Part shown: positions 2,687 through 54,990 of the stretch, piece after piece
How positions within the stretch are numbered: position 1 is the first letter of the stretch
Layout: each line of letters opens with the position of its first letter
DNA from: Ehretia macrophylla
Taxonomy: Eukaryota > Streptophyta > Magnoliopsida > Boraginales > Ehretiaceae
DNA length: 64,000 bases
Direction: 5' to 3'
Assembly (NCBI GenBank): GCA_037974665.1
Contig: CM075773.1
Coordinates: 31,568,853-31,632,852 of the forward strand
The notes under the pieces: model-generated
What the model was told of the DNA's origin: nothing
The model's database searches: none
The model's input: the letters and a program-made list of their open reading frames with translations, nothing else
Position numbers and translations under genes: made by a program

Positions 2687-4515
2687 ATGGGGATGTCAAC
2701 TAGAATCCACCATTCTCTACTGCTCTTCATTTCAGGTACACATAATACATATCCTCCTTTTTACAATTGTCTCTTTCTCTTTTTTCCTTTAGTTTGTAAT
2801 TATTAAAATATATATGTCAAATGGCAGCGGCGCTTGTATACTCTAGTAGAATGGAGAAGATGCAGGTGGAAAGTTCGGTGGGCATAAACTACGGGCGCAT
2901 AGCCGACAACCTACCCTCCCCAGAAAACGCAGTCCCTCTCCTCAAATCCATTGGTGCTACAAGAGTCAAACTCTACGACGCAGATCCCCGAGTCTTGAAA
3001 GCATTCGCCAACACAAATATACAACTCATCATCGGCTTAGGTAATGAATACTTATCCAAAATGGCACTAGACCCTGCTCAAGCCTTGTCCTGGGTCAAGA
3101 CCACCGTCCAGTGCCACTTACCTGCCACCAAAATCACCTGGATTGCCGGCGGGAACGAAGTCTTAACCACCACCACCACCACCACCTTCTCTAACGACTC
3201 TTCTTCTTCTTCTTCTTCACTCGCTTCTCACCTCCTCCCTGCTATGCAAAACATTCAAAATGCTCTCTCTAACCTCAACCTCCACCGCCAAGTTAGTGTC
3301 ACCACTCCTCACTCTTTAGCAATTCTTCAAACCTCTTACCCACCTTCAGCTGCCAAGTTTAGGCAAGACTTGGTTGATTGCATCCTCAAGATTGTAGCTT
3401 TTCATACTAAAACCGGCTCCCCTTTCTTGATTAATGCCTACCCATTCCTTGCTTATAAAGCTAATCCCAAACAAGTTTCACTCGATTTCGTTCTATTTCA
3501 AGCAAACAACTCTTCTTCTGCTGCAAATGGCATTATTCTTGACCCACTCACAAAGCTACGTTACGATAACATGTTGTTCGCTCAGATCGATGCCGTTCAT
3601 TCCGCTTTTGAAAAGATTGGCTGCAAACAAGTCTGCGTCCAAATCTCCGAAACTGGTTGGCCCTCCAAGGGTGACGCCGACGAGCCTGGTGCCTCGCCCG
3701 AAAATGCCAACAAGTATAATGCCAACTTGATTAAGCTTATACAGCAGAAAAGAGGCACGCCCATGAGGCCTAATGCCAATTTGAATATTTATGTCTTTGC
3801 TTTATTTAATGAGAATCTCAAGCCCGGCCCCACTTCCGAGCGGAATTTCGGCCTCTTCAAGCCCGATGCGACTCCGGCGTATCCTTTGGGTCTTGGTGGC
3901 ACCGCTCCTGTGAGTACTAGTAATACTACTGGCTCCGGTGACTCGTCGGACACACCGTCGCCGCCAAATGGGTATTTGTCCATTACTTCTAATACGGTGA
4001 GTTATGCATTTACTTGGGGAAATTTAATTGTTTACCGTAATATCCTGTGTCACATCTGTATTATAAAGTATGTATCTAATTTTGAATTTTTTTGTATTAT
4101 AAACAAAAATTTTAATATTTTAAGCCAATTAATTAAGTTTACTAGTCTGTCAATTTAGCTTTCATTAATAAAAATAAAAAAAAATAAAAAAAATCTTTTT
4201 TAATATGCTAATAGTAATCATTACATTTACAACTCCACAACTTTTAGATCGTTTCTCTTTTTCAAATTTACTTTAATATCGCATGATCTAAGCGGATCGG
4301 ATTAAAACATAAAAAGTAAAGTATTTAGGTATAATCTATTTTCTGTTTAAACATAAAAAGTGGCTAACTAGTTCTCATTCTGAAAATATGTGCAAATGTG
4401 CTTTTTGTAAAAAACCCAGGGGAGACTTTTTGTGCGTAGCGGCGCATTTGTGCTGGTCTTTAGCCTAGCAGCTTCAATTACTTTGACCATCTCTCAAACG
4501 CTAAAAGATAATTGA
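2687..4515 (+). CDS. GH17 glucan endo-1,3-beta-glucosidase with hydrophobic C-terminal tail
   Basis: Hydrolyses callose (beta-1,3-glucan) at the wall or plasma membrane. Model: 2687..2735, 2828..3996, 4420..4515, 437 aa, phases 1 and 0 kept, GT-AG introns. The first ATG (2687) gives a signal peptide with core SLLLFISAALVY that is only completed by splicing at 2827/2828; starting at the in-frame ATG 2821 would lose it. The GH17 barrel begins at VGINYGRIADNLPSP. The acid/base is E127 in AGGNEVL and the nucleophile E291 in QISETGWPSKGD, both present. A Ser-rich insert (about residues 136-145) lies just after the first. The last exon gives SGAFVLVFSLAASITLTI, the hydrophobic end expected of a GPI signal; there is no X8/CBM43 domain. 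The third exon is the least certain part. It resembles the Arabidopsis glucan endo-1,3-beta-glucosidase 11/14 type. Confidence 0.9.
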
Positions 4516-22639: not shown

Positions 22640-23767
22640 AGTTTATCATTCCCACGAGGAACATGATTACTAACTACCTAAATTAATCTAACTTTAACTT
22701 TATTTGGACAACCAAAATTTGAGAGTTTGCAGATAAGAAGTAATAACTAAAATGCTTTTAAAATTAATACTAAACAAATTTGAAATCAATAAAAAGGATG
22801 AATCAATGATTTAAAAGTTTTAGGGTTTCCGACTTCACCAATATTAACCCCACTTGAATTCAACCACTTGAATCCCTTGAATTGAATTAATTAATGCCTA
22901 TTCCCTATGTTGCCAGCAATTTCACTAAGATGGTTATTAATATTTCTCAAGCATCAATAACATATCCCAATAAGCAAGCTAACTACATCTCTGTGATAAT
23001 TATAAACTTATGAAACTCATTAAGCGCTAGAAATTCAAGTGTTGCGCAAGATTTCATAAATATATCTATCTTATAATAATCTAACGGTATCACAAACGTG
23101 GTCTAATCTGATTATCACTTCTCAGTCTCAAACCAAACTACAAAACATGCAATTATTGGCCAGGCAATCACAAGCATTAAGTTCAGAATGAAATAATCAA
23201 CATATATTTGGAATAGTGCATCAATCAATCAAAAAAAATAGAATTCAATTGTTCTTAATCTGGCTACATCGTAGCCCTAGAATAAAAAAACTTAGAACAT
23301 CATAATGAAATTAAATAAAATCCAGAACATAGTGTAAATCATGATAAGAGAAGGAAGAAAAACTAGGATTTGGAGAAGATCGTGGTATAAGTCTGTCTCC
23401 GAATTGTTTTTCCATCTTCAACTCGTGAATTCTGGAGTTTTTGTCTTTCTGGAACGTTTCTTGCTTCCAAAGTCGGCTTCCCCTTTCTGTATCAGACGTT
23501 GCCTCTTATATTTGCTAGGGCTTCCTTTCATTAGTCATCTAATGAAAATACCCCTGGTAAGTTTCTACGACATAGTGCAGCTGCGCTATGGCTAGTCAGA
23601 TATCAATTCGCAGTCCAATGAAAATACCCCTGGTAAGTTTCTACGACATAGTGTAGCTGCGCTATGGCTAGTCAGATATCAATTCGCAGTCCAATGTTTT
23701 TCAAACTTTAAAATACATTCAGTCCTTGCTATCCTCTTCAATTTTTGCTCAGAAAACCAATCTTGCT
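22640..23767. other. Retroelement-derived, non-coding
   Basis: No gene. Includes a run GGCTACATCGTAGCCCTAG and other text typical of old plant LTR-retrotransposon debris, and a 76-bp tandem duplication listed separately. It continues on the far side of the solo LTR at 23768-26206. Confidence 0.4.
23541..23692. repeat. 76-bp perfect-period tandem duplication
   Basis: Copy one 23541-23616, copy two 23617-23692, beginning AATGAAAATACCCCTGG. I see a single difference (GTGCAGC versus GTGTAGC), so it is recent. A third copy starts AATG and is lost. Confidence 0.95.
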
Positions 23768-26206
23768 TGTCACGCCCTAACTCGACCCCTCCTATAACCA
23801 GTCAAGACGCAACGGAATTTCGGCAGTATAACGACAGTAAATAGGATACCGAGGTTCTAAACCAACCTCTATAGGACATCATACCTTAACTACATAAACC
23901 ATACAATAAACAAATCTTCAATAAATACAACATACATCATGACTATATTATACAATAATCATTTCTCGTTATACGCCTCCGTTTCAACATAAAACATAAA
24001 CCTTAATATACAATACAAAACATATTGAGCCAATCTAGCAACCTGATCATAAACAAAAGAAAGGCTACTAAGACAATATCAACTAATTCATTAACTTATC
24101 AACATCTTATACATTATAAACTACAAAGCAGATAAAAGTCTACTAAGTTAATTTACAAGATAATAAAACATGTACGACATCACGGATAAGACTCTGGAAC
24201 ATAGGACTTATCCACGTAAGGCACGTTTTCCACATTCTCCTCTTCAGGAGGCACGTACCCGTAATCTTACGAAAGTACACCTGTAAACATGCAATAATAG
24301 AGAGTGAGCTTATATAAAATAAGCCCAGCGAGGATCCGATAGATCTCGAGCAAGGTCTACTAAACTCCTTGGAATAATCCTTTGAGTCAGCAAACACACA
24401 ATACCATAAATAATACTATCATCATATAATTATATAATCATTCAATAAAGGATACTCTAGTTGGTGTAGCTCCATACGCCATCACGATCTCAACCATTCT
24501 TCTTATAACTCCCCATTACTCACACACCTGAGGTACCTCACTAGCCCCTCCCTCCATGACACCTCCGTCATGCGAGCTGGGGGTAGTCTCTGGCAGTCAT
24601 GCCGTTTTCAACCCAACAGCCCAACGCTGTCCGAGAGGTGGCACACACATACCAAGACTCCATAACAATCATCAATAATCAATCAATCATCAATCAATAA
24701 TCTGGGAGATCAGCAACAAAAGTGCCCGATTCCCGTACTCAATAATCAATCAATATAACATCAATATAACATCAATATTTAATTAAACAACAAACAACTA
24801 AGTTAGATGATAAAGTAGGCAATCTAACCGAACATGCATTAAACACACATTCAAACTCTAATTTACCCATCAACAACTCACAATTCAATCACTCAACCCA
24901 CACCCAATCAACTAAGGCTCAATCTAACATTTTAAAGAAAGACAACCTAAACTTCAATTAATCATATCTTACATTCTACTAATCCAAACAACTCCAAATC
25001 AGTTTCAAACACTCACCCATTCAACCATCTACATTAGCCCCCTCGGAAAACCACCATAACACCTCCAAATCATGCCCGATAACTCTAAAACCCTAAGGTG
25101 TCAAGGCTGAATTTTCCAGATTTTCACCCAAACATCATAATCGAAAATTCGGCATTACAACGGCGCTACCACGTAATTATCAAACATTTAGAAATCGACG
25201 GCAATCGATTCCGATCAACACAACTCAATTAAATCAATATTGAACAATTTAATCAAATTTAAATACACGGAAAATGAAAATTATGCTACAACCGATAAAA
25301 ACTCGTAGTATTACAGCTAAATGATCCCTAGCATGCAAGGAGTAATAATCTACCATCAGATTAGAATTCTAACGGTTCGATTTTCAATTCTATGCAAAAA
25401 TACAAAAGTTGAGTTTTGAGATCCAGAATTTTTCTCTCACCTTTGATGCGATATATGCCTAGGAATGCGTGCAATGCGTGCCCAACAAGCGGAATCCAAG
25501 TCAGCACGAAATTCTACAGACAAAACTAGGTTTTTCTTTGAAATTTTGTGTTGAAAACCTTGAAGAAAAGCTTGGCTATTCTCTCATGAACCTCTCGGCC
25601 ATATGTGTGAAAATGAAGGTGTTTTTGTGCTTTGCTTGTGTGTGTAGGTGATATAAGCTTCAAAGTCAACATTTTAAATAAAGTCAAAGTTAGTTTAAAT
25701 TAGTATTTTTGTGTTTTCTTGACTTTAATTGCATTTTCTTGATCACCAAAGTTCAAAACATTTATTCAACACCCAAACTAGCTCAAGTAAATTATTTTTA
25801 GGTGACAAGAAGTTTTACAATCCAACAATTTCACTCGAGTCGGCTTAAAACTCGATTTTCGCAAAAGTCGGTGTAAAAATCCTAATAAATTCTTAAGCCG
25901 ATTTTAAAACCGTTTTCATCAAACACATGTCTATTAAAGTCCGTGGACTAGGTCTAGAAGGGTTAAAAAGACCAGTTTCAAAATTTTAGCGGACGTGTTT
26001 CAAAAATACTATTCACTAAAAATCGACGATAAAATTTCTGACTTCGTTTTTGATGAAAATTTCATGAATGCACATTTAGCACGTATTAGGAGTATTGATA
26101 TCAAAATTATAACATTCTAGGCCCTATAGCACATAAACAGGTCATATGCACGCAAAACGAGACAAAGTACGTAAATCAAGTTAAAGCAGATAAGTGGGGT
26201 TTCACA
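23768..26206 (-). mobile_element. Solo LTR, family 'TGTGAGACCCC', 2439 bp
   Basis: Ends are TG...CA in either direction: it starts TGTCACGCCCTAACTCGACC and ends GGGGTTTCACA on the + strand. Both sides carry the perfect 5-bp duplication TTGCT (23763-23767 and 26207-26211). No gag, pol, primer site or second LTR lies next to it, so it is a solo LTR. It is homologous in reverse to 51024-53485 along its length, for instance the shared GGATTCCGCTTGTTGGGCA. The long LTR and terminal words suggest a Ty3/gypsy element of Tekay/Del type; sense strand is not certain. Confidence 0.88.
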
Positions 26207-26211
26207 TTGCT

Positions 26212-39635: not shown

Positions 39636-39645
39636 CAACAATTGG

Positions 39646-39666
39646 GGGGAATGAAGCCTGGTCCGA
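39646..39666 (-). ncRNA. miR166: Mature miR166 (3' arm)
   Basis: Exact 21-nt match to the canonical plant miR166 sequence beginning TCGGACCAGG, on the minus strand. Confidence 0.96.
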
Positions 39667-39769
39667 GGCACTAACACATGATTCATGACACATAGATCCA
39701 TTAATGACAATATTTGAGATGATATATATATATTAATCATCTGCGGCATAAAGATCTAGCAGCTGGTAG

Positions 39770-39790
39770 CCTCGAGCCAGACAACATTCC
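39770..39790 (-). ncRNA. miR166 star (5' arm)
   Basis: 21 nt beginning GGAATGTTGTCTGG on the minus strand, matching the usual miR165/166 passenger strand. Confidence 0.9.
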
Positions 39791-39800
39791 CCTCAAACCA

Positions 39801-48149: not shown

Positions 48150-48780
48150 AGTGCACTGTATCAGGGCAATTTTCTATCCAACCTCAATTGTAGAAGGGGT
48201 GATGATAAATTTATAAGTGTGAGAGAAAGTCTTACCTCATAAATTTTAGTTTTTTGGGGTTGAGAAGGGTCAACACCACCTAATACTAGTAAAAAACCTA
48301 AGGTTTTAACAAATCTCCAATTGATTCGGAAGACACTGGGTTGATGATCATAAGCCAACCCAAGGTCCGATGTGTGGGGGAGAGATTGTTGGATTATCCG
48401 ATATCCATTATCTAAGGGTCTAGTGGTCAATTTACAAGTGAGATAGAAAGTCTCACCTCATGAGCTAGGTTTTAGGGTCGAGAAGGCCTAAGACCACCAA
48501 ATACTAGTGTCAAAGTCTAAAGTTTTACCAAATCTTCAGTTAATTTGCGAAAGACTGAGAGATGAAGAGCCTACCCATTACCTGATGTGTGAGGGAGAGA
48601 TTGTTGGGTTATCCAATATCGGTTGTGGAAAGGCTAGTTATTACTTTATAAGTATAAGTGGGAGCTTCACTTCATAAGATAATTTTTGAAGTTGAGAAGG
48701 TCCAAGACTATCTAAAACTAATATTAGAGCCCAAAATTTCAAAAAATCTCTAGTTGATTAGGGAGATATTGACTTGATAC
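48150..48780. repeat. Tandem TRIM-like units, about 215 bp each
   Basis: Three degenerate head-to-tail units. Units two and three begin TGTTGG(A/G)TTATCC at 48387 and 48602 (period 215); unit one begins about 48167 in decayed form. Each holds the LTR-like words CTCACCTCATGAGC and GAGAAGGCC-like text and ends with a purine-rich GATGTGTGGGGGAGAGA, like a polypurine tract. Weak relics of a TATCAGAGCC-type primer site occur. Unit three is split by the composite insertion and resumes at 54803. TRIM elements are non-coding mini LTR-retrotransposons; the label is by structure. Confidence 0.65.
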
Positions 48781-49234
48781 TGTAATGATCCTACATCGGA
48801 ATCTCACCCTTACAAGGGGTACTTCTTAAGTACAAGTGGTTCTCCCATCTAACAGACTAGTCTTTTGGGATGGGCTATTCCTTTGAGCTTAAGTTGTTAC
48901 ATTATTGGGCATATTTTGTTACTTTGATGCCTTCGTTGAGAGTGGCCTCCATAGCGGGTCGACTATAGGCTAGATTAAGGTGTGGTAAGTGTTGCACTGA
49001 ATACTGATAGGTGGGTGCAGCCGCCAAAAAAAAAAAAAAAAGGGCTACCGTTGGATCAGTGTTGATAGGCTAGCTCGACATGAACGTCAGCTCTTAATTT
49101 AAGGGGGATGGAATATAATGATCCCACATCGGAATCTCATTCTCACAATGGGTGCTTCTTAAGTACAAGGGGTGCTCCTACCTAACAGACTAGTCTTTTG
49201 GGATGGGCTCTTCCTTTGGGCTTAAGTTGTTACA
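48781..49234 (+). mobile_element. Second TRIM-like mini element with 121-bp LTRs
   Basis: Two direct repeats of equal length, 48781-48901 and 49114-49234, start TGTAATGATCCTACATCGG / TATAATGATCCCACATCGG and end AAGTTGTTACA. The 212-bp internal part ends in a purine-rich AAGGGGGATGGAA before the second repeat. The 30 bases after the second repeat (TTCTTGGGCTTATTTTGTTA) copy the start of the internal part, so this was a longer tandem LTR-internal-LTR chain, cut by the gypsy element. Confidence 0.75.
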
Positions 49235-49264
49235 TTCTTGGGCTTATTTTGTTACTTTGGTGAA

Positions 49265-49678
49265 TGTGATGAACGATCCTGATGCTTCATAGGTAGAGAT
49301 GCCCAAGGAAGATTCTAGCACAAATGCGGTTATGCTTCAGCACATGATTAACACACCGCAGCTGGGCAAAGGGCTCAATCACAAGTCATCACCAAAATAC
49401 CTTAATCAGTTGGTTACTAAATGAGAGCAACGTGACTAAAGTAGTATAAAGTGATCGATAAGCTCAATAGAAAGGGGATCATAAAATTGTTATAGAAATC
49501 TCTCAAAACACTTATCTCTTTCTCTCTTCTTGGAGTTAGCCAATTACTCAAAATATTGGTGTTATCTTTGTAATCCTGCTTTAATCTTCCTGTCAATTGC
49601 AATACAATCAGCTCCACTTCCTTTTAATTCTCTGCTTTCCAGTAGTGATTAAGCTTTTCTCTTAGTTTGATCATTACA
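49265..49678 (+). repeat. Gypsy 5' LTR
   Basis: 414 bp, TG...CA. Partner of 54389-54802. Includes TTGCAATACAATCAGCTC and the run TAAAGTAGTATAAAGTGATC that may be the core promoter. Confidence 0.93.
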
Positions 49679-49679
49679 A

Positions 49680-50555
49680 ATGTGCTTTCATTTTTCCGAA
49701 CACATGGAGGATGAAACCAGACTCAAAGTTATTGGTGGAACTCTCAAACAACAAGCTCAAATACTTGAATCTCTTCAATCAGCCATCAATGCACAACAGA
49801 AATCTTTGGAGCAACTTGCTCTTCAATACACTACTATTGAGGGAAAACTCAATCAAGTCATGCAAACTAGCAATTCGATGCAATCAGCTATTTCATCTCC
49901 ACATAAATCTATGGAGCAGTTGGGTTTACCGTGTACTGCTTTAGATGGTAAGCTCACTCAAGTTCTCCATTCTAACAAGTCCTATTCTTCTCACTCAGCC
50001 CCTCTGGCTCTATTTTTCTCGGTTCAATGGTTGTGATGCAATGGGTTGGTTGTTTAAAGCAAAACAATTTTGTGATTACTACGGAATTAACGATGCTCAA
50101 CAGTTAATGATTGCCTCATTCCACATGGATGGCATGGCTCTACAGTGGTATCAATGGTTTATTCGCAACAATCAAATTAGTTCATGGACTTAATTCAGGA
50201 GCGCATTGAAAATCAGGTTTGTGCCATTGGAATTCGAAAACCAATATGAATAATTGGCTAAACGGATACAAATATCCACTGTCACTGAGCATCACTCGGC
50301 CTTTGAAGTGTTAGCAAATTGCAGCACTAACCTCCCCAACGACTTCTTGGGTCATTGTTTCGCTTCAGGCCTACGAGCTGAAATTCAGAAAAAGGTTGCC
50401 TTCAGGCCTACTACCATGCATCAAGCCATCAGTTTAGCCCGTTTGTAGGAAACGAATTTGGAGACACTGCGACGTCTTCATTTTTGCAGCCTAGTTACCA
50501 AAAATCCAAACACTCATACCAACCTATACACCTAAACCAATACAAACACGAAATT
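49680..50555 (+). pseudogene. Ty3/gypsy gag remnant
   Basis: Begins after the LTR with MEDETRLKVIGGTLKQQAQI, a Gln/Leu-rich coiled-coil lead. A frame change occurs near 50020, then the retrotransposon gag core: AMGWLFKAKQFCDYYGI, QQLMIASFHMDGMALQWYQW, and NLPNDFLGHCFASGLRAEIQ. In-frame stops occur at about 50191, 50249 and 50446, so no Gag is made. The style is that of plant chromoviruses. No zinc knuckle remains; the frame runs straight into the PPR piece. Confidence 0.88.
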
Positions 50556-50640
50556 GGAGTTCATTATTGTTGATTTTTTATCGAAATTAGGTGGAATGGG
50601 TACTGCACGGAAGGTGTTTGATGCAATGACGGAACGAAGT
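50556..50640 (+). pseudogene. Captured pentatricopeptide-repeat (PPR) gene fragment
   Basis: About 28 codons read VDFLSKLGGMGTARKVFDAM then TERS. The pattern (Y/F)SKxGxMxxARKVFDxMxER is the classic plant PLS-type PPR repeat and is foreign to any retrotransposon. Too short to name the parent. It abuts gag on one side and an unassigned segment on the other. Confidence 0.72.
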
Positions 50641-50819
50641 TCGGTGTATTTGAAAGGTGATATGATAAAGGTGAAGGGGTTACTAAATCATCCTTCGTGG
50701 ATTCCGTGGAGTATGTATTTGAAAGTGAGGAAAAAGGGTAAGATTAGGATTTTGATGGGTATACAACTGAAGATGCTTAGCGATCCAAGGAGGGTTGACT
50801 TTGTGGCTAAAGGCACATA
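50641..50819 (+). pseudogene. Captured segment of unknown origin
   Basis: In frame with the PPR piece up to a TAG at 50818: includes GDMIKVKGLLNHPSW and KVRKKGKIRILMGIQLKMLS. I do not recognise it. It may be a third host-gene fragment or decayed internal sequence. Confidence 0.45.
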
Positions 50820-53800
50820 GACAATAAAATTCTATAGTGATGAGGAGTTGTATAAGGACCGTATGATAGCTTTGAGGAAGCGTGTTGAAATCGATTCTAT
50901 GTCCGCCATTGTCTTTTGCCCTTATGATCCTTCAAACTTTAAGCAATTTCTTAAACGGCTAGGGAACATAAGTGCAGCCTTGGCAAATACTTATTACAGA
51001 GTTGAAGGAAGAAGAGTTAAACCTGTGAGACCCCATATTTTGTTTTTATCTCGATTTGCGTGTTTTGCCTTGATTTGCGTGATTTGACCTATTTATTTGT
51101 TATATGAGTTAGAATGTGTTAAATATCTGATTTATATTCCTAATACATGCTATGTGTGCATTCATTAAATTTTCATCAAAATCGGCACCAGAAATTTTAT
51201 CGCCGGTTTTAGTGAATAGTATTTTGAACACTTGTCCGCTAAAATTTTTACAGGGGTGTTTTAAATATTTTAAAACCTAGTTCTCGGGGATTAATAAACC
51301 CGTGTTTGATTAAAACGGATTTTGAATTTTAAAGATTTTTACACTTTCTTTTGCAAGAAATTGAGTTTTAAGCTGACTCGGGTGAAAATGTTTGAACGTA
51401 AAACTCTTTGCCACCCAAAATATATTATCTAGAATTAGTATAAGTGTCAATTTAGTGTTTGAGCAAGAAATAGTCAAGAAAATGACTTAAAAGACTAAAA
51501 AATACTAAAAAATAAACTAAGAAATAGTCAAGAAAATGACTTTGAGCTATATTGCATCAACACACATTAAAAGTTCACAAAACATATTCATTCTACACAC
51601 ACATTACTTAGAAGAAGGAGAGAAAAATAGAGAGAAAAATTCAAAGGTTTTCAAAGCAAAATTCACTTGAAAACCTAGTTTTTTTATGTAGTTTTTTGAG
51701 CCAAGTTGGATTCCGCTTGTTGGGCAGGCATTGCACGCATATCTAGGCTTGTTTCAAATCGAAGGTGAGAGAAAAATTCTAGATCTCAAATGTCATTTTT
51801 TATGTTTTTGCATATAATTGAATTTTGAACCGTTAGAAAGTTGAATTGATGTTATATTATTGCTCAGTGCATGCTAAGGATCGTTTATATGCGTTTATAT
51901 AAGATTTGAACCGTTGTAGCATGAATTTTATTTTTCAGGTATTAAAAATTGAGTATTTTGCTATTTGTTGAATAAATGTTGTTGTGGTGGTTGGAATCGA
52001 TTGATGTTAGCTTGTAAAAGTTTGTTAAATACGTGGTAGTAATGTTGTAATGCCAAAATTTTGATTGTGATGTCAGTGTAAAAGTCCGAAAATTTCAGCC
52101 TAGGTGCATTGAGGTTTTAGGGTTGTTGGCTTGATGTGGATGGTTTATGGTTGGTTTCCAAGGGGGTGAATGTTGTTGATTGAGTAGGTGAGTGATAGAA
52201 ATTGGTTTGGAGGTTATTGGATTGGTAGAATGTAAGTTATGACTTTGAGAAGTTCGGGTTGTCTTTCTTTAGAATGTTGATATATGCCTTTGAATGATCG
52301 GGTGGTATTTGAGTGATTGAATTGTGAGTTTTTGATGGTTAGATTAGGGTTTAGTTGTGTGTTTAATGCATGTTAAGTTGGGTGGCCTACTTTGTCATAT
52401 AACTTAGTTGTTTGTTGTTAATTAATTAGTTGTTGTTATGTTGTTGAATTGATGATTATCGATTGATTATTGTTGAACCGGGAGATAGACAACCTACTTT
52501 GTTGTCCTCCTATGATAATTGATTATTGATGAATCGGGAGATAGTCAACAGAAAATATTGTCCTTTTGTGAATGAATGTTTATTTTTATTGCTGAGTCTT
52601 GGTATATGTGTGCCACCTCTCGGGCAGCATCGGGTTGTCGGGTTGAAACTGGCATAACTACTATAGACTACCCCCAGCTCGCATGACGGAGGTTTCATAG
52701 AGGGAGGGGCTAGTGAGGTACCTCGGGTGCGTGAGTAATGGGGAGTTACAAGAAGAACGGTTGAGATCGTGATGACGTTTGGAGCTACACCAACTAGAGT
52801 ATCCTTTATTGATTGGTCATTATAGTTAATGTGCTTATATTGTTATTGATGATTGTTGTGTGTTTACTGCTCAAAGGATAATTTCCAAGGAGTATAGTAA
52901 ATACTATTAGAGATCTATCGAATCCTCACTGGGCTTGTTTTATATAAGCTCATTCTCAATTATTGCATGCATACAGGTGTTACCGATCCAGATTAAGGGT
53001 ACGTGCCTCCAGAATAGGATTATGTGCCATATGTGGATGAGTCCTACGTGCCAGAGTCTTGTCCTTGATTTATGATGTTGTACGCTCTTGTTATATTGTA
53101 TATTAAACTTAGTTGTTATGTATTTATTTAGAAGTTTATGTTATATAAGATGTTGTAAAGATAATGGATCAAAAGTTGCTAGTTTAGTGGTTATGTTTTG
53201 GAATATGATTAGGCTACCGGATTGGTTATAATCTATTTTGTGAATGTATATTATATAGTAAATGTATGATGTTAGAACAGAGGCGTATAACCTATGGATG
53301 CAATGGTAAAGAATGTTTATTGTATATTGCGGCTGTGTTGTTAATTGTTGAATAATTGTGGAGTTGGATGTATGAATTTCAAAGAGGTTGGTTTAGAGCC
53401 TCGGTGTCCTAATTACTGTCGTTATAATGCCGAAATTCCGTTACGTCCTGACTGATCGTAGGAGGGGTCGGGTTGGGGCGTTACAAAAGCACATCTTGAA
53501 AAGAGGAGCTCAAGTTCGATGGAGTTGTATGTTCTCTATTGTTTTAAAGTTGTTGTATTTTCAGCATTTCGTAGAGATTGGGTGGAAGCTTTGAGGCTAT
53601 ACAAGGATGGATATCACGCACTGTGGGAAAGGGTCGGGATATCAACACAATTGCCTCCGATTCAACGTTTAGTGGAGATTAAGGTTGTTGCAGATCAATT
53701 GCATCTTAAGATTGCAACTTTGCTATTACAGGGTGGAAAACTTGGAGAAGCAATCACATGGTTCTGCTAACACAATCCTTCTTACAGAAATCTTACGGGC

Positions 53801-54026
53801 ACACCAGAAGTTATTTTTCTTCATTGGAAATGGTTGCGCCACCAATTTTTGGTATTTGCTGAACTGTTCTAGTCAAGCTCTACGACTATACAAAATGTTG
53901 CACATATAGTTTCAGGTATTGTAGATAAACCTACAGAATGGGAATATTATTTAGCTTATTATTATGAGTTAGCAGCTCAATACTTGAAGGAGAAGAGTTC
54001 ATTTTTACAACTTATGCTAGCTATGT
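50820..54026 (+). pseudogene. Captured TRAPPC11 (foie gras domain) gene fragment, split by a solo LTR
   Basis: Part one, 50820-51023: ELYKDRMIALRKRVEIDS ... LANTYYRVEGRRVK. Part two, 53486-54026: AHLEKRSSSSMELYVLYCFK, RRDWVEALRLYKDGYHALWE, LPPIQRLVEIKVVADQLHLK, LLQGGKLGEAITWF, then after a stop at 53767 and frame shifts NPSYRNLTGTPEVIFLHW, AELF, WEYYLAYYYELAAQYLKEK. These match the order of the plant TRAPPC11 homologue (TRAPP vesicle-tethering subunit). Removing the solo LTR rejoins the frame exactly at RRVK-AHLEKR. No intron is visible across what are usually several exons, so an RNA intermediate is likely. Several lesions rule out a functional product. Confidence 0.85.
51024..53485 (+). mobile_element. 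Solo LTR, family 'TGTGAGACCCC', 2462 bp
   Basis: Starts TGTGAGACCCCATATTTTG and ends GGTTGGGGCGTTACA. Flanks AAACC (51019-51023) and AAAGC (53486-53490) are a 5-bp duplication with one change; the coding context shows AAAGC was original. Full-length reverse homologue of 23768-26206, with which it shares GGATTCCGCTTGTTGGGCA and GTGAGAGAAAAATTCT. It inserted into the TRAPPC11 piece after capture. Confidence 0.9.
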
Positions 54027-54388
54027 CACCACATAATGGTAAAGTTGATAGGAGCGTTGACTATGTAGGGGCTTTTAATGGTCAGGTTGCTTACAAGTTG
54101 GAATTGCCACCAACTTCTAAAAGTCATTCCGTGTTACATATTTTGTTGCTAAAAAAGGTCAAAGGAGATATCTCTACCATGGTACCCCTTCCTGACCAGT
54201 CCTCAAGCTCGGCTCCAATTCACAAGCTTGCTGCAATTTCAGCTCAAAGGAGTATTCAAAGGATAGGGTACCCTGTCAACCAGGTTGTAATTCAATGGGA
54301 GGACTTACCCATCAAGGATGCATCTTGGGTGGATGAACAACAACTTAAGAACCTTGAGGACAAGGTTCTCATTGACGGGGGAAAGCAA
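54027..54388 (+). pseudogene. Ty3/gypsy integrase C-terminal remnant with chromo-like end
   Basis: Reads GQVAYKLELPPTSKSHSVLH then LLLKKVKGD (the integrase tail VAYKLxLPP...HPVFHVSxLKK), then VNQVVIQWEDLPIKDASWVD, the chromo-like domain (xVLxQWxxLxxxxASWE) that marks plant chromoviruses. The frame runs into the 3' LTR. All catalytic pol parts upstream are missing. Confidence 0.88.
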
Positions 54389-54802
54389 TGTGATGAACGA
54401 TCCCGATGCTTCACAGGTAGAAATGCCCAAGGAAGATTCTAGCACAAATGCGGTTATGCTTCAGCACATGGTTAACACACCGCATCTGGGCAAAGGGCTC
54501 CATCACAAGTCATCACCAAAATACCTTAATCAGTTGGTTACCAAATGAGAGCAACGTGACTAAAGTAGTATAAAGTGATCGATAAGCTCAATAGAAAGGG
54601 GATCAAAAAATTGCTATAGAAATCTCTCAAAATACTTCTCTCTTTCTCTTTTCTTGGAGTTAGCCAATTACTCAAAATATTGGTGTTTTCTTTGTAATCC
54701 TGCTTTAATCTTCTTGTCAATTGCAATACAATCAGCTCTACTTCCTTTTAATTATCTGCTTTCCAGTAGTGATTAAGCTTTTCTCTTAGTTTGATCATTA
54801 CA
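54389..54802 (+). repeat. Gypsy 3' LTR
   Basis: 414 bp, partner of 49265-49678, preceded by a purine-rich GACGGGGGAAAGCAA. Confidence 0.93.
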
Positions 54803-54990
54803 GATGCTGAGTAACTCAAAACCCGATGTGTGCGGGGGAAATTGTTGGGTTATCACACATTGGGTGCAGAAGTGGTTGATAATCAATTTTAAAATATAAG
54901 GGAAAATTTCGCCTCATGAGCTGTCCTCTGAGATTGAAAAGGCGCTAGACCACCTAACAACTAGACCCAAAAGATCCTGGCCCACATTCT
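54803..54990. repeat. Resumed third TRIM-like unit
   Basis: CCCGATGTGTGCGGGGGAAA followed by TTGTTGGGTTATCACACATT and CGCCTCATGAGCTGTCC copies the unit at 48150-48780, so the composite split an existing array. Confidence 0.65.

Follow-up and report, generated by a model that had tools for sequence, protein, structure and literature searches.

A probable non-autonomous chromovirus-type LTR retrotransposon of Ehretia macrophylla with host-gene pieces in place of most of pol

Plant long terminal repeat (LTR) retrotransposons are known to take up pieces of host genes, and such pieces lie inside an element at 49265-54802 of a 64,000-nucleotide stretch of Ehretia macrophylla DNA (assembly GCA_037974665.1, contig CM075773.1, positions 31,568,853 to 31,632,852), which we call the window. 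The maize LTR retroelement Bs1 contains parts of three host genes and has a hybrid open reading frame (PMC13317346). A maize survey lists 425 LTR elements with gene fragments, none of which, under the conditions used, combined fragments of two or more standard nuclear genes (PMC2774510), and counts of LTR-captured genes have been reported for rice and sorghum (PMC3726574). NLR genes of pepper and other plants have been retroduplicated in mostly non-autonomous LTR elements, sometimes with two or three genes per element (PMC5664825). A flax paper, which applies the term ‘multiple gene fragments’ to Pack-MULEs, mentions an LTR element of soybean in which non-coding and resistance-gene segments are mixed within a 10.5-kb insertion (PMC3544724). 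Plant LTR elements can contain additional open reading frames and transduced genes, the latter usually in gag/pol sense (PMC7264820). In animals, LTR-mediated retroposition by template switching at microsimilarities has been described, and repeated switches are thought possible (PMC5408686). Among the matches listed in searches of the open-licence full-text literature, no title concerned multi-gene mosaics of the kind described below in LTR elements, none on TRAPPC11 and retrotransposons concerned plants, and none returned for microhomology was relevant.

The element in the window is very probably a non-autonomous Ty3/chromovirus-type LTR retrotransposon in which gag is followed by a PPR-derived module, a fragment of a DEM/CYPRO4 gene and an intron-free fragment of TRAPPC11, ahead of a terminal portion of pol (Table 1).

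An LTR element with host cargo and its copies

The two LTRs differ at 16 positions without gaps (398/414 identical, Kimura two-parameter (K2P) distance 0.040; 17 differences in 420 over a slightly longer alignment) and have TG...CA ends, as in Ty3/gypsy chromoviruses. The gag, PPR, DEM, TRAPPC11 and pol parts all lie in the sense orientation. The order protease, reverse transcriptase, RNase H, integrase, chromodomain is absent from the element, in which the integrase/chromodomain end alone is left of pol, and we therefore class it as a non-autonomous derivative rather than an autonomous member. These features bear out much of an earlier sequence-only reading, which had proposed matched LTRs, replacement of most of pol by host-gene pieces on the element’s own strand, and a terminal remnant of gypsy pol. 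That reading had counted two host genes, PPR and TRAPPC11; both pieces are present, but a third, from DEM/CYPRO4, had escaped it. Its TRAPPC11 assignment is borne out by a Foie-gras_1 match and by the match to the gene, but the extent was misjudged, as the fragment falls into two halves and ends at 54074 rather than 54026. What it took for an unassigned piece of the interior is mostly a later, nested insertion.

The genome searched comprises 1.58 Gb in 20 contigs (contigs are given as C2, C5, C14 and so on, and loci as L0xx numbers). A search with the TRAPPC11 piece, in which 14 of 14 candidates were scored, returned 12 full-length places at 92-100% identity and one exon-split gene on C2. The order gag-PPR-DEM-TRAPPC11-pol end is common to 12 copies, the window copy included, some of which are truncated or interrupted. 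The C12 copy and the C14 copy at 7.68 Mb are broken by foreign sequence, the latter without a 3′ LTR in the stretch examined, and both are left out of the counts of LTR pairs and reading frames; one C2 copy lacks part of gag, and the C17 copy has no match to the initial bases of the TRAPPC11 piece. Further copies with the same joint, for which the sequence-only reading had suggested looking, thus exist, and most of the readable ones have target-site duplications.

Identical 5-bp flanks are found at seven of the ten copies with two readable LTRs. A pair of C2 copies (L014/L015), arranged in tandem as LTR-interior-LTR-interior-LTR with one LTR in common, has the outer flanks TTGTC/TTGTT (4/5), and the window copy has no duplication. 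Three C14 copies, at about 6.1, 6.6 and 7.0 Mb, have the same flanks; because these flanks are identical, the three copies derive from one insertion by segmental triplication and are counted once. The nine two-LTR copies outside the window therefore amount to six insertion sites, five with exact 5-bp duplications (GTTTG, TAGGA, TAAGC, GATGG and CTCCG) and one with 4/5. The same order recurs among the copies, and five or six sites outside the window have target duplications; the finished chimera has transposed as a unit.

K2P distances between LTRs range from 0.022 to 0.064 among the copies. At 1.3e-8 per site and year, a rate used in PMC5664825 that may not suit the plant here, the LTRs of the window copy would be about 1.5 million years old. 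Genome-wide, the 414-bp LTR is matched 36 times, in 25 cases with an identity of 90% or above, and two LTRs of the family are solitary within the 3 to 3.5 kb around them.

Several observations weigh against this account of the element and its assembly. Both gag matches in the window are below the Pfam cut-offs (Retrotrans_gag E 0.04, Ty3_capsid E 0.094), as are both matches of the pol end (SH3_Tf2-1 24.9 bits, Chromo 17.6 bits), and Pfam gave no PPR match in the window, where there are PPR-like words only. A canonical tRNA-Met primer site is not visible after the 5′ LTR, where AATGTGCTTTCATT was matched to no tRNA. The window copy lacks a matching target-site duplication (GTGAA/GATGC), and few nucleotides are in common at the DEM-TRAPPC11 joint. 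Moreover, no autonomous member of the same family was found, by searches none of which was directed at gag; the likeness of L022 (80-82%) is confined to the pol end and to parts of the LTR.

The window gag is 80% DNA-identical to part of the gag of L023/L024, and the gag of a further relative, L026, matches Ty3_capsid at E 1.7e-9. The pol end has 82% DNA identity to L022 across 269 bases, and its L022 counterpart scores 26.6 bits for Chromo (cut-off 25.1). L022 and L025/L026 are broken pol-bearing relatives: RVP_2, RVT_1 and Chromo are above the Pfam cut-off in L022, with rve and RNase H below it, and RVT_1, Integrase_H2C2, rve and SH3_Tf2-1 are above it in L025. The gag-bearing relative L023, on C19, has an interior split by an opposite-strand copia-type element, as judged by eye from the frames. 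The stretch after the 5′ LTR is AAGGTGCTTTCATT in eight of the nine other readable copies and TTGGTGCTTTCATTG in two mosaics on C5 and C6 that are described below. The window element is embedded in other repeats, with 147- and 73-nucleotide direct repeats in 48346-49262 and 54803-54930. The right flank looks by eye like the 73-nucleotide repeat, and this may be a reason for the lost target duplication.

Table 1. Parts of the element in the window (window positions) and host cargo of the mosaic loci
Feature	Position	Strand	Basis
5′ LTR, 414 bp, TGTGATG...ATTACA	49265-49678	+	alignment to 3′ LTR
Post-LTR stretch at expected primer-binding site, AATGTGCTTTCATT	49679-49705	+	read from sequence
Degenerate Ty3-type gag	49706-50535	+	weak Pfam matches, DNA identity to relatives
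PPR-derived module common to other mosaics	50550-50718 (approximate borders)	+	genome matches, reading by eye
DEM/CYPRO4 (DUF7135-VID27 gene) fragment	50719-50848	+	82% to gene on C13
10-nt spacer TGTATAAGGA	50849-50858	+	onward sequence follows mosaic loci L050/L051 and departs from DEM gene
TRAPPC11 fragment, first half	50857-51025	+	exon blocks of gene in L020
Later insertion, 2459 bp, TGTGAGACC...GGGGCGTTACA (TG...CA), near-duplicated target flanks AAACC/AAAGC	51026-53484		missing from other copies
TRAPPC11 fragment, second half	53485-54074	+	Pfam Foie-gras_1; gene introns missing
pol end: integrase C-terminal SH3-like part and chromodomain, purine-rich GGGGGAAAGCAA at its end	54075-54388	+	Pfam below cut-offs; DNA identity to L022
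3′ LTR, 414 bp	54389-54802	+	alignment to 5′ LTR
L030 cargo: MutS III			
L031: 97-98% copy of L037			
L032 cargo: P450 match below cut-off (21.5 of 22.8)			
L033 cargo: CCT-gamma, chaperonin-60, chitinase-domain			
L034, L035 cargo: NB-ARC			
L036 cargo: further PPR piece; DEAD 25.9 bits (cut-off 26)			
L037 (C5 element) cargo: RNR large subunit, FPGS, HSP90; DnaJ piece below cut-off			
L046 cargo: DUF7135, E1-E2 ATPase; tubulin below cut-off			
L047 cargo: EF-hand, tubulin, DUF7135, ANTH, YTH (five host families in one 2.2-kb stretch)			
L050 cargo: SPO22			
L051 cargo: CSN4, PPR			

Origin of the captured pieces

The TRAPPC11 gene on C2 has four GT-AG introns (86, 546, 1146 and 541 bp) across the captured stretch. 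The sequence-only reading had pointed to an alignment with this gene, and the element copies, whose TRAPPC11 pieces measure 711-754 bases against 751 bases of joined gene exons, have none of the four. Because these introns are gone from the copies, the piece was captured from spliced RNA. That part of the earlier reading therefore stands, and the template switching that it also invoked is consistent with common stretches at some of the joints. The Foie-gras_1 score of the piece, 23.6 bits, is barely over the cut-off of 23.3, and a PDB search with the two TRAPPC11 pieces gave zero matches. No 3′ poly(A) tract is seen by eye at the TRAPPC11 border, and internal template switches would not predict one. 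Upstream of the matched TRAPPC11 exons, L020 carries a repeat (at about 3821-4298) that is 76-82% identical to sequence flanking the window element on its left.

The copies are 88-90% identical to the gene, and the positions of their stop codons vary by copy. The ratio of nonsynonymous to synonymous substitution rates (dN/dS) has a mean of 0.85 between copies (55 pairs) and is 0.63-1.01 between copies and gene, by simple Nei-Gojobori (NG86) counts that leave out the window copy, which was kept as two halves. With copy-specific stops and ratios of this size, the piece is evolving nearly neutrally.

The TRAPPC11 halves are contiguous in 11 of 11 other copies, without the 2459-bp insertion, and the empty site was read in three. 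The insertion is a later arrival and, to judge from its ends, its flanks and two diverged relatives, is probably a solo LTR. One relative (73-75%) lies at 23767-26207 of the window on the minus strand, and the other, in L017, is 78% identical to the first 725 bases of the insertion. A captured gene in this 2.46-kb middle part was ruled out, as the part is missing from the other copies.

The DEM piece scores 22 bits for DUF7135 (cut-off 27). Its parent gene on C13, which we take to be the one called DEM or CYPRO4, has a 583-codon frame with DUF7135 at 258.6 bits and VID27 at 129.2 bits; the piece is confined to one exon of this parent and is therefore uninformative on splicing. A parent gene of the PPR piece was not found in the genome searches made. 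Because the piece recurs at many other places in the genome, it seems more likely to have been inherited from another mosaic element than newly taken from a PPR gene. Thus, of the PPR capture seen by the sequence-only reading, the PPR-derived module stands and its fresh capture becomes the less likely part.

In scans of the whole window, no tRNA was found and Rfam returned MIR166 alone, a precursor at 39641-39797 on the minus strand (RF00075, 80.6 bits).

Mosaics linked through the PPR-DEM module

At least 27 further places in the genome match parts of 50570-50758 at 78-88% identity (query 50480-51025; 40 of 137 candidates scored). A DEM search returned 16 places beyond the window family, of which L045 (the gene itself), L046 and L047 were examined, and six places, among them the examined L050 and L051, match only 35 bases at the spacer. 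Twelve loci were read, namely L030-L037 together with L046, L047, L050 and L051, the latter four reached via DEM or the spacer; L041 and L042 are also among the genome loci of this mosaic guild. In ten of the 12 the cargo is supported by a PDB match or by one that exceeds the cut-off, one locus is assigned by identity and one has a weak match only, and cargo seen by eye alone (permease, SNF4-like, DFR-like) was left out of the counts. LTR pairs were read in the C5 and C6 mosaics and were deduced from match positions at eight module places, these two and that of L030 included; both LTRs were not seen for L032-L036, L046, L047, L050 and L051. We regard this guild, with its common PPR-DEM module, as a larger finding than the window element itself.

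In the C5 mosaic the two LTRs, each about 290 bp long, are 99.7% identical; this mosaic also shows 5-bp flanks TTCTG/TTCTG and, by eye, a chromovirus-like pol end. Its LTR (family 2) occurs at 29 genome places, and eight of the 27 module places sit between such LTRs. The FPGS gene (C18) matches in seven exon blocks and the RNR gene (C2) in three, and these are contiguous at three element places; the loss of introns is here read from the gaps between exon blocks (six and two), that is, from match blocks rather than from splice-border sequence. Both parent genes contain an exact 8-nucleotide overlap, ATTCTTGG, at the FPGS-RNR joint. The FPGS piece (query 1-156 or parts of it) is found at seven more places, five of them between family-2 LTRs. 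A Bs1-type transducing LTR element would hold sense-strand spliced pieces of at least two host genes between its LTRs. The C5 mosaic has two spliced genes (FPGS and RNR); in the window, TRAPPC11 is spliced, the DEM piece comes from within one exon, and for PPR no parent was found.

Reading frames are often kept across these joints. In the window family, one of the nine copies with a readable interior has a single 717-codon frame that begins in gag, crosses the three host pieces (PPR module, DEM, TRAPPC11) and enters the pol end, where it stops before the chromodomain, and the longest frame in the other eight is 118-291 codons. Among the mosaics, eight of 12 loci have a longest frame of 440 codons or more (L030 511, L031 460, L033 619, L034 500, L035 440, L037 751, L047 617, L050 467) and is shorter in L032 (216), L036 (270), L046 (209, sense strand) and L051 (197). 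When codons in open stretches of at least 50 are counted by frame in a set of 11 loci, a single frame is dominant in the C5 mosaic (1086/131/65), L047 (600/52/0), L050 (467/64/0) and L051 (390/0/0), and likewise in L032 (662/57/0), L034 (652/154/87), L035 (771/228/125) and L030 (863/259/223). The one-frame bias is weaker in L033 (741/457/59), and there is none in L036 (488/458/98) or L046 (449/331/50). Open antisense stretches reach 263 codons in L046 and 255 in the C5 mosaic.

All five host families of L047 share one frame. Such one-frame runs look unlikely under random joining, which would keep the frame with a chance of one third per joint, joints common by descent being counted once. The raw dN/dS of six mosaic pairs, 0.47-0.83 (pair C6/L033 left out), suggests weak or no constraint on the amino acids, and frames that stay open although the protein is not strongly constrained are the pattern that would be expected from avoidance of nonsense-mediated decay.

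Routes of assembly and comparison with known systems

The PPR-DEM module ties the window family to the mosaic guild, whose frames tend to continue from a gag-like start through several cargo pieces. We infer that template switching built the window family. Particles of an autonomous relative would have packaged host mRNAs along with the element RNA, and the reverse transcriptase of that relative, starting on gag RNA, would have jumped at short common stretches first to an RNA in which PPR and DEM were already joined, then to TRAPPC11 mRNA and back to pol RNA. The product would have retained the LTRs, gag and the pol end, and may have been mobilised in trans by enzymes of pol-bearing relatives like L022 or L025/L026. 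Common stretches at some joints support such switching. The DEM gene and the mosaic L051 are identical over 26 nucleotides where the window leaves DEM, although some of these nucleotides in L051 could come from DEM. The TRAPPC11-pol joint reads ATTGGTCAGTTTGCT in the gene and ATTGGTCAGGTTGCT in the C17 copy; any microhomology here would be tentative, the pol parent being known only via a diverged relative.

A more far-reaching reading, somewhat less likely than not, is that a chromovirus-derived lineage in this genome works as an exon-shuffling machine. Through jumps of reverse transcriptase, its non-autonomous members would time and again link spliced pieces of many unrelated host mRNAs, and they would hand partly built mosaics between element families. 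Those that spread would mainly be the ones with a single frame from a gag-like start through the cargo to the pol end; nonsense-mediated decay might eliminate RNAs with a broken frame, or the fusion protein might benefit the element. If this is true, the lineage would be a continuing source of multi-domain candidate genes, and the window element may belong to a natural gene-shuffling machine.

The likeness of the PPR-DEM regions could also reflect independent use of the same genes, with the PPR, DEM and TRAPPC11 mRNAs each taken directly and stepwise by the window family. In the searches made, TRAPPC11 stands beside DEM in the window family only, which favours this route; however, the PPR-DEM joint region resembles that of the many other places scored, and the 10-nucleotide spacer after DEM is the one found in other mosaics. 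The same break points are unlikely to have been chosen independently, and we consider stepwise capture unlikely as a whole. Nor do we find much room for the view that the in-frame chimeras are retrogenes of the host, kept by selection on their coding sequence, with LTR elements as mere carriers. The 717-codon frame and the dN/dS values of the six mosaic pairs could be read in that sense, but the corresponding ratio for TRAPPC11 is near neutral, the stops are copy-specific, and the other eight copies of the window family are broken. NG86 disregards transition bias, so that its ratios tend to be low, and carried retrogenes are in our view distinctly improbable.

Capture at the DNA level, by Helitron- or Pack-MULE-like elements or by ectopic recombination, with LTR mobilisation thereafter, would draw on the fact that such elements widely take gene pieces in plants (PMC13317346). 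Introns were lost wherever this was tested, however (four in TRAPPC11, six gaps in FPGS and two in RNR), and the elements end in LTRs that are flanked by 5-bp duplications; on these grounds the route was rejected, and we hold it to be very improbable. Pack-MULEs and Helitrons usually retain introns. The window element has lost those of TRAPPC11 and has LTR ends, although no separate search for terminal inverted repeats was made. The absence of matching target duplications around the window copy might still suggest two unrelated LTR insertions that happen to enclose unrelated debris. This chance pairing has practically no probability left, being refuted by the constant arrangement of parts in 12 copies spread over several chromosomes and by the matching duplications at most two-LTR copies.

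Gene capture by LTR elements is already known from maize Bs1; what appears to be new is the recurrence of mostly in-frame multi-gene mosaics. Large surveys treat such capture mostly single gene by single gene. Here, one genome has yielded a dozen read loci, in which as many as five host families per locus were named by the search tools, two spliced captures besides TRAPPC11, one joint with exact microhomology and frames that are often kept. Two questions thereby become testable: how a plant reverse transcriptase builds chimeras from several mRNAs, and whether RNA surveillance selects the chimeras that spread.

As with Bs1, an LTR element contains pieces of more than one host gene and a hybrid open reading frame, but the genes are different, the pol end is of chromovirus type, and the PPR-DEM module recurs beside many cargoes, with as many as five host families in 2.2 kb (L047). 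The gene fragments lie inside intact LTR elements, as in the captures of maize, rice and sorghum, but in contrast to the maize survey there are several host genes per element. Pepper NLR retroduplication likewise placed spliced mRNA within mostly non-autonomous LTR elements, but amplified whole gene families, whereas short pieces of unrelated genes are fused here. The soybean element also has several host segments, for which the available part of PMC3544724 states neither splicing nor frame. The cargo is sense to gag and pol, as transduced genes usually are (PMC7264820). The mechanism that we propose is the same as that proposed for animal LTR-mediated retroposition, which concerns, as far as the available part of PMC5408686 goes, the incorporation of cellular mRNA rather than multiplying mosaics of many genes. 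Finally, the mosaics resemble Pack-MULEs and Helitrons in shuffling several genes, but those are DNA elements without LTRs.

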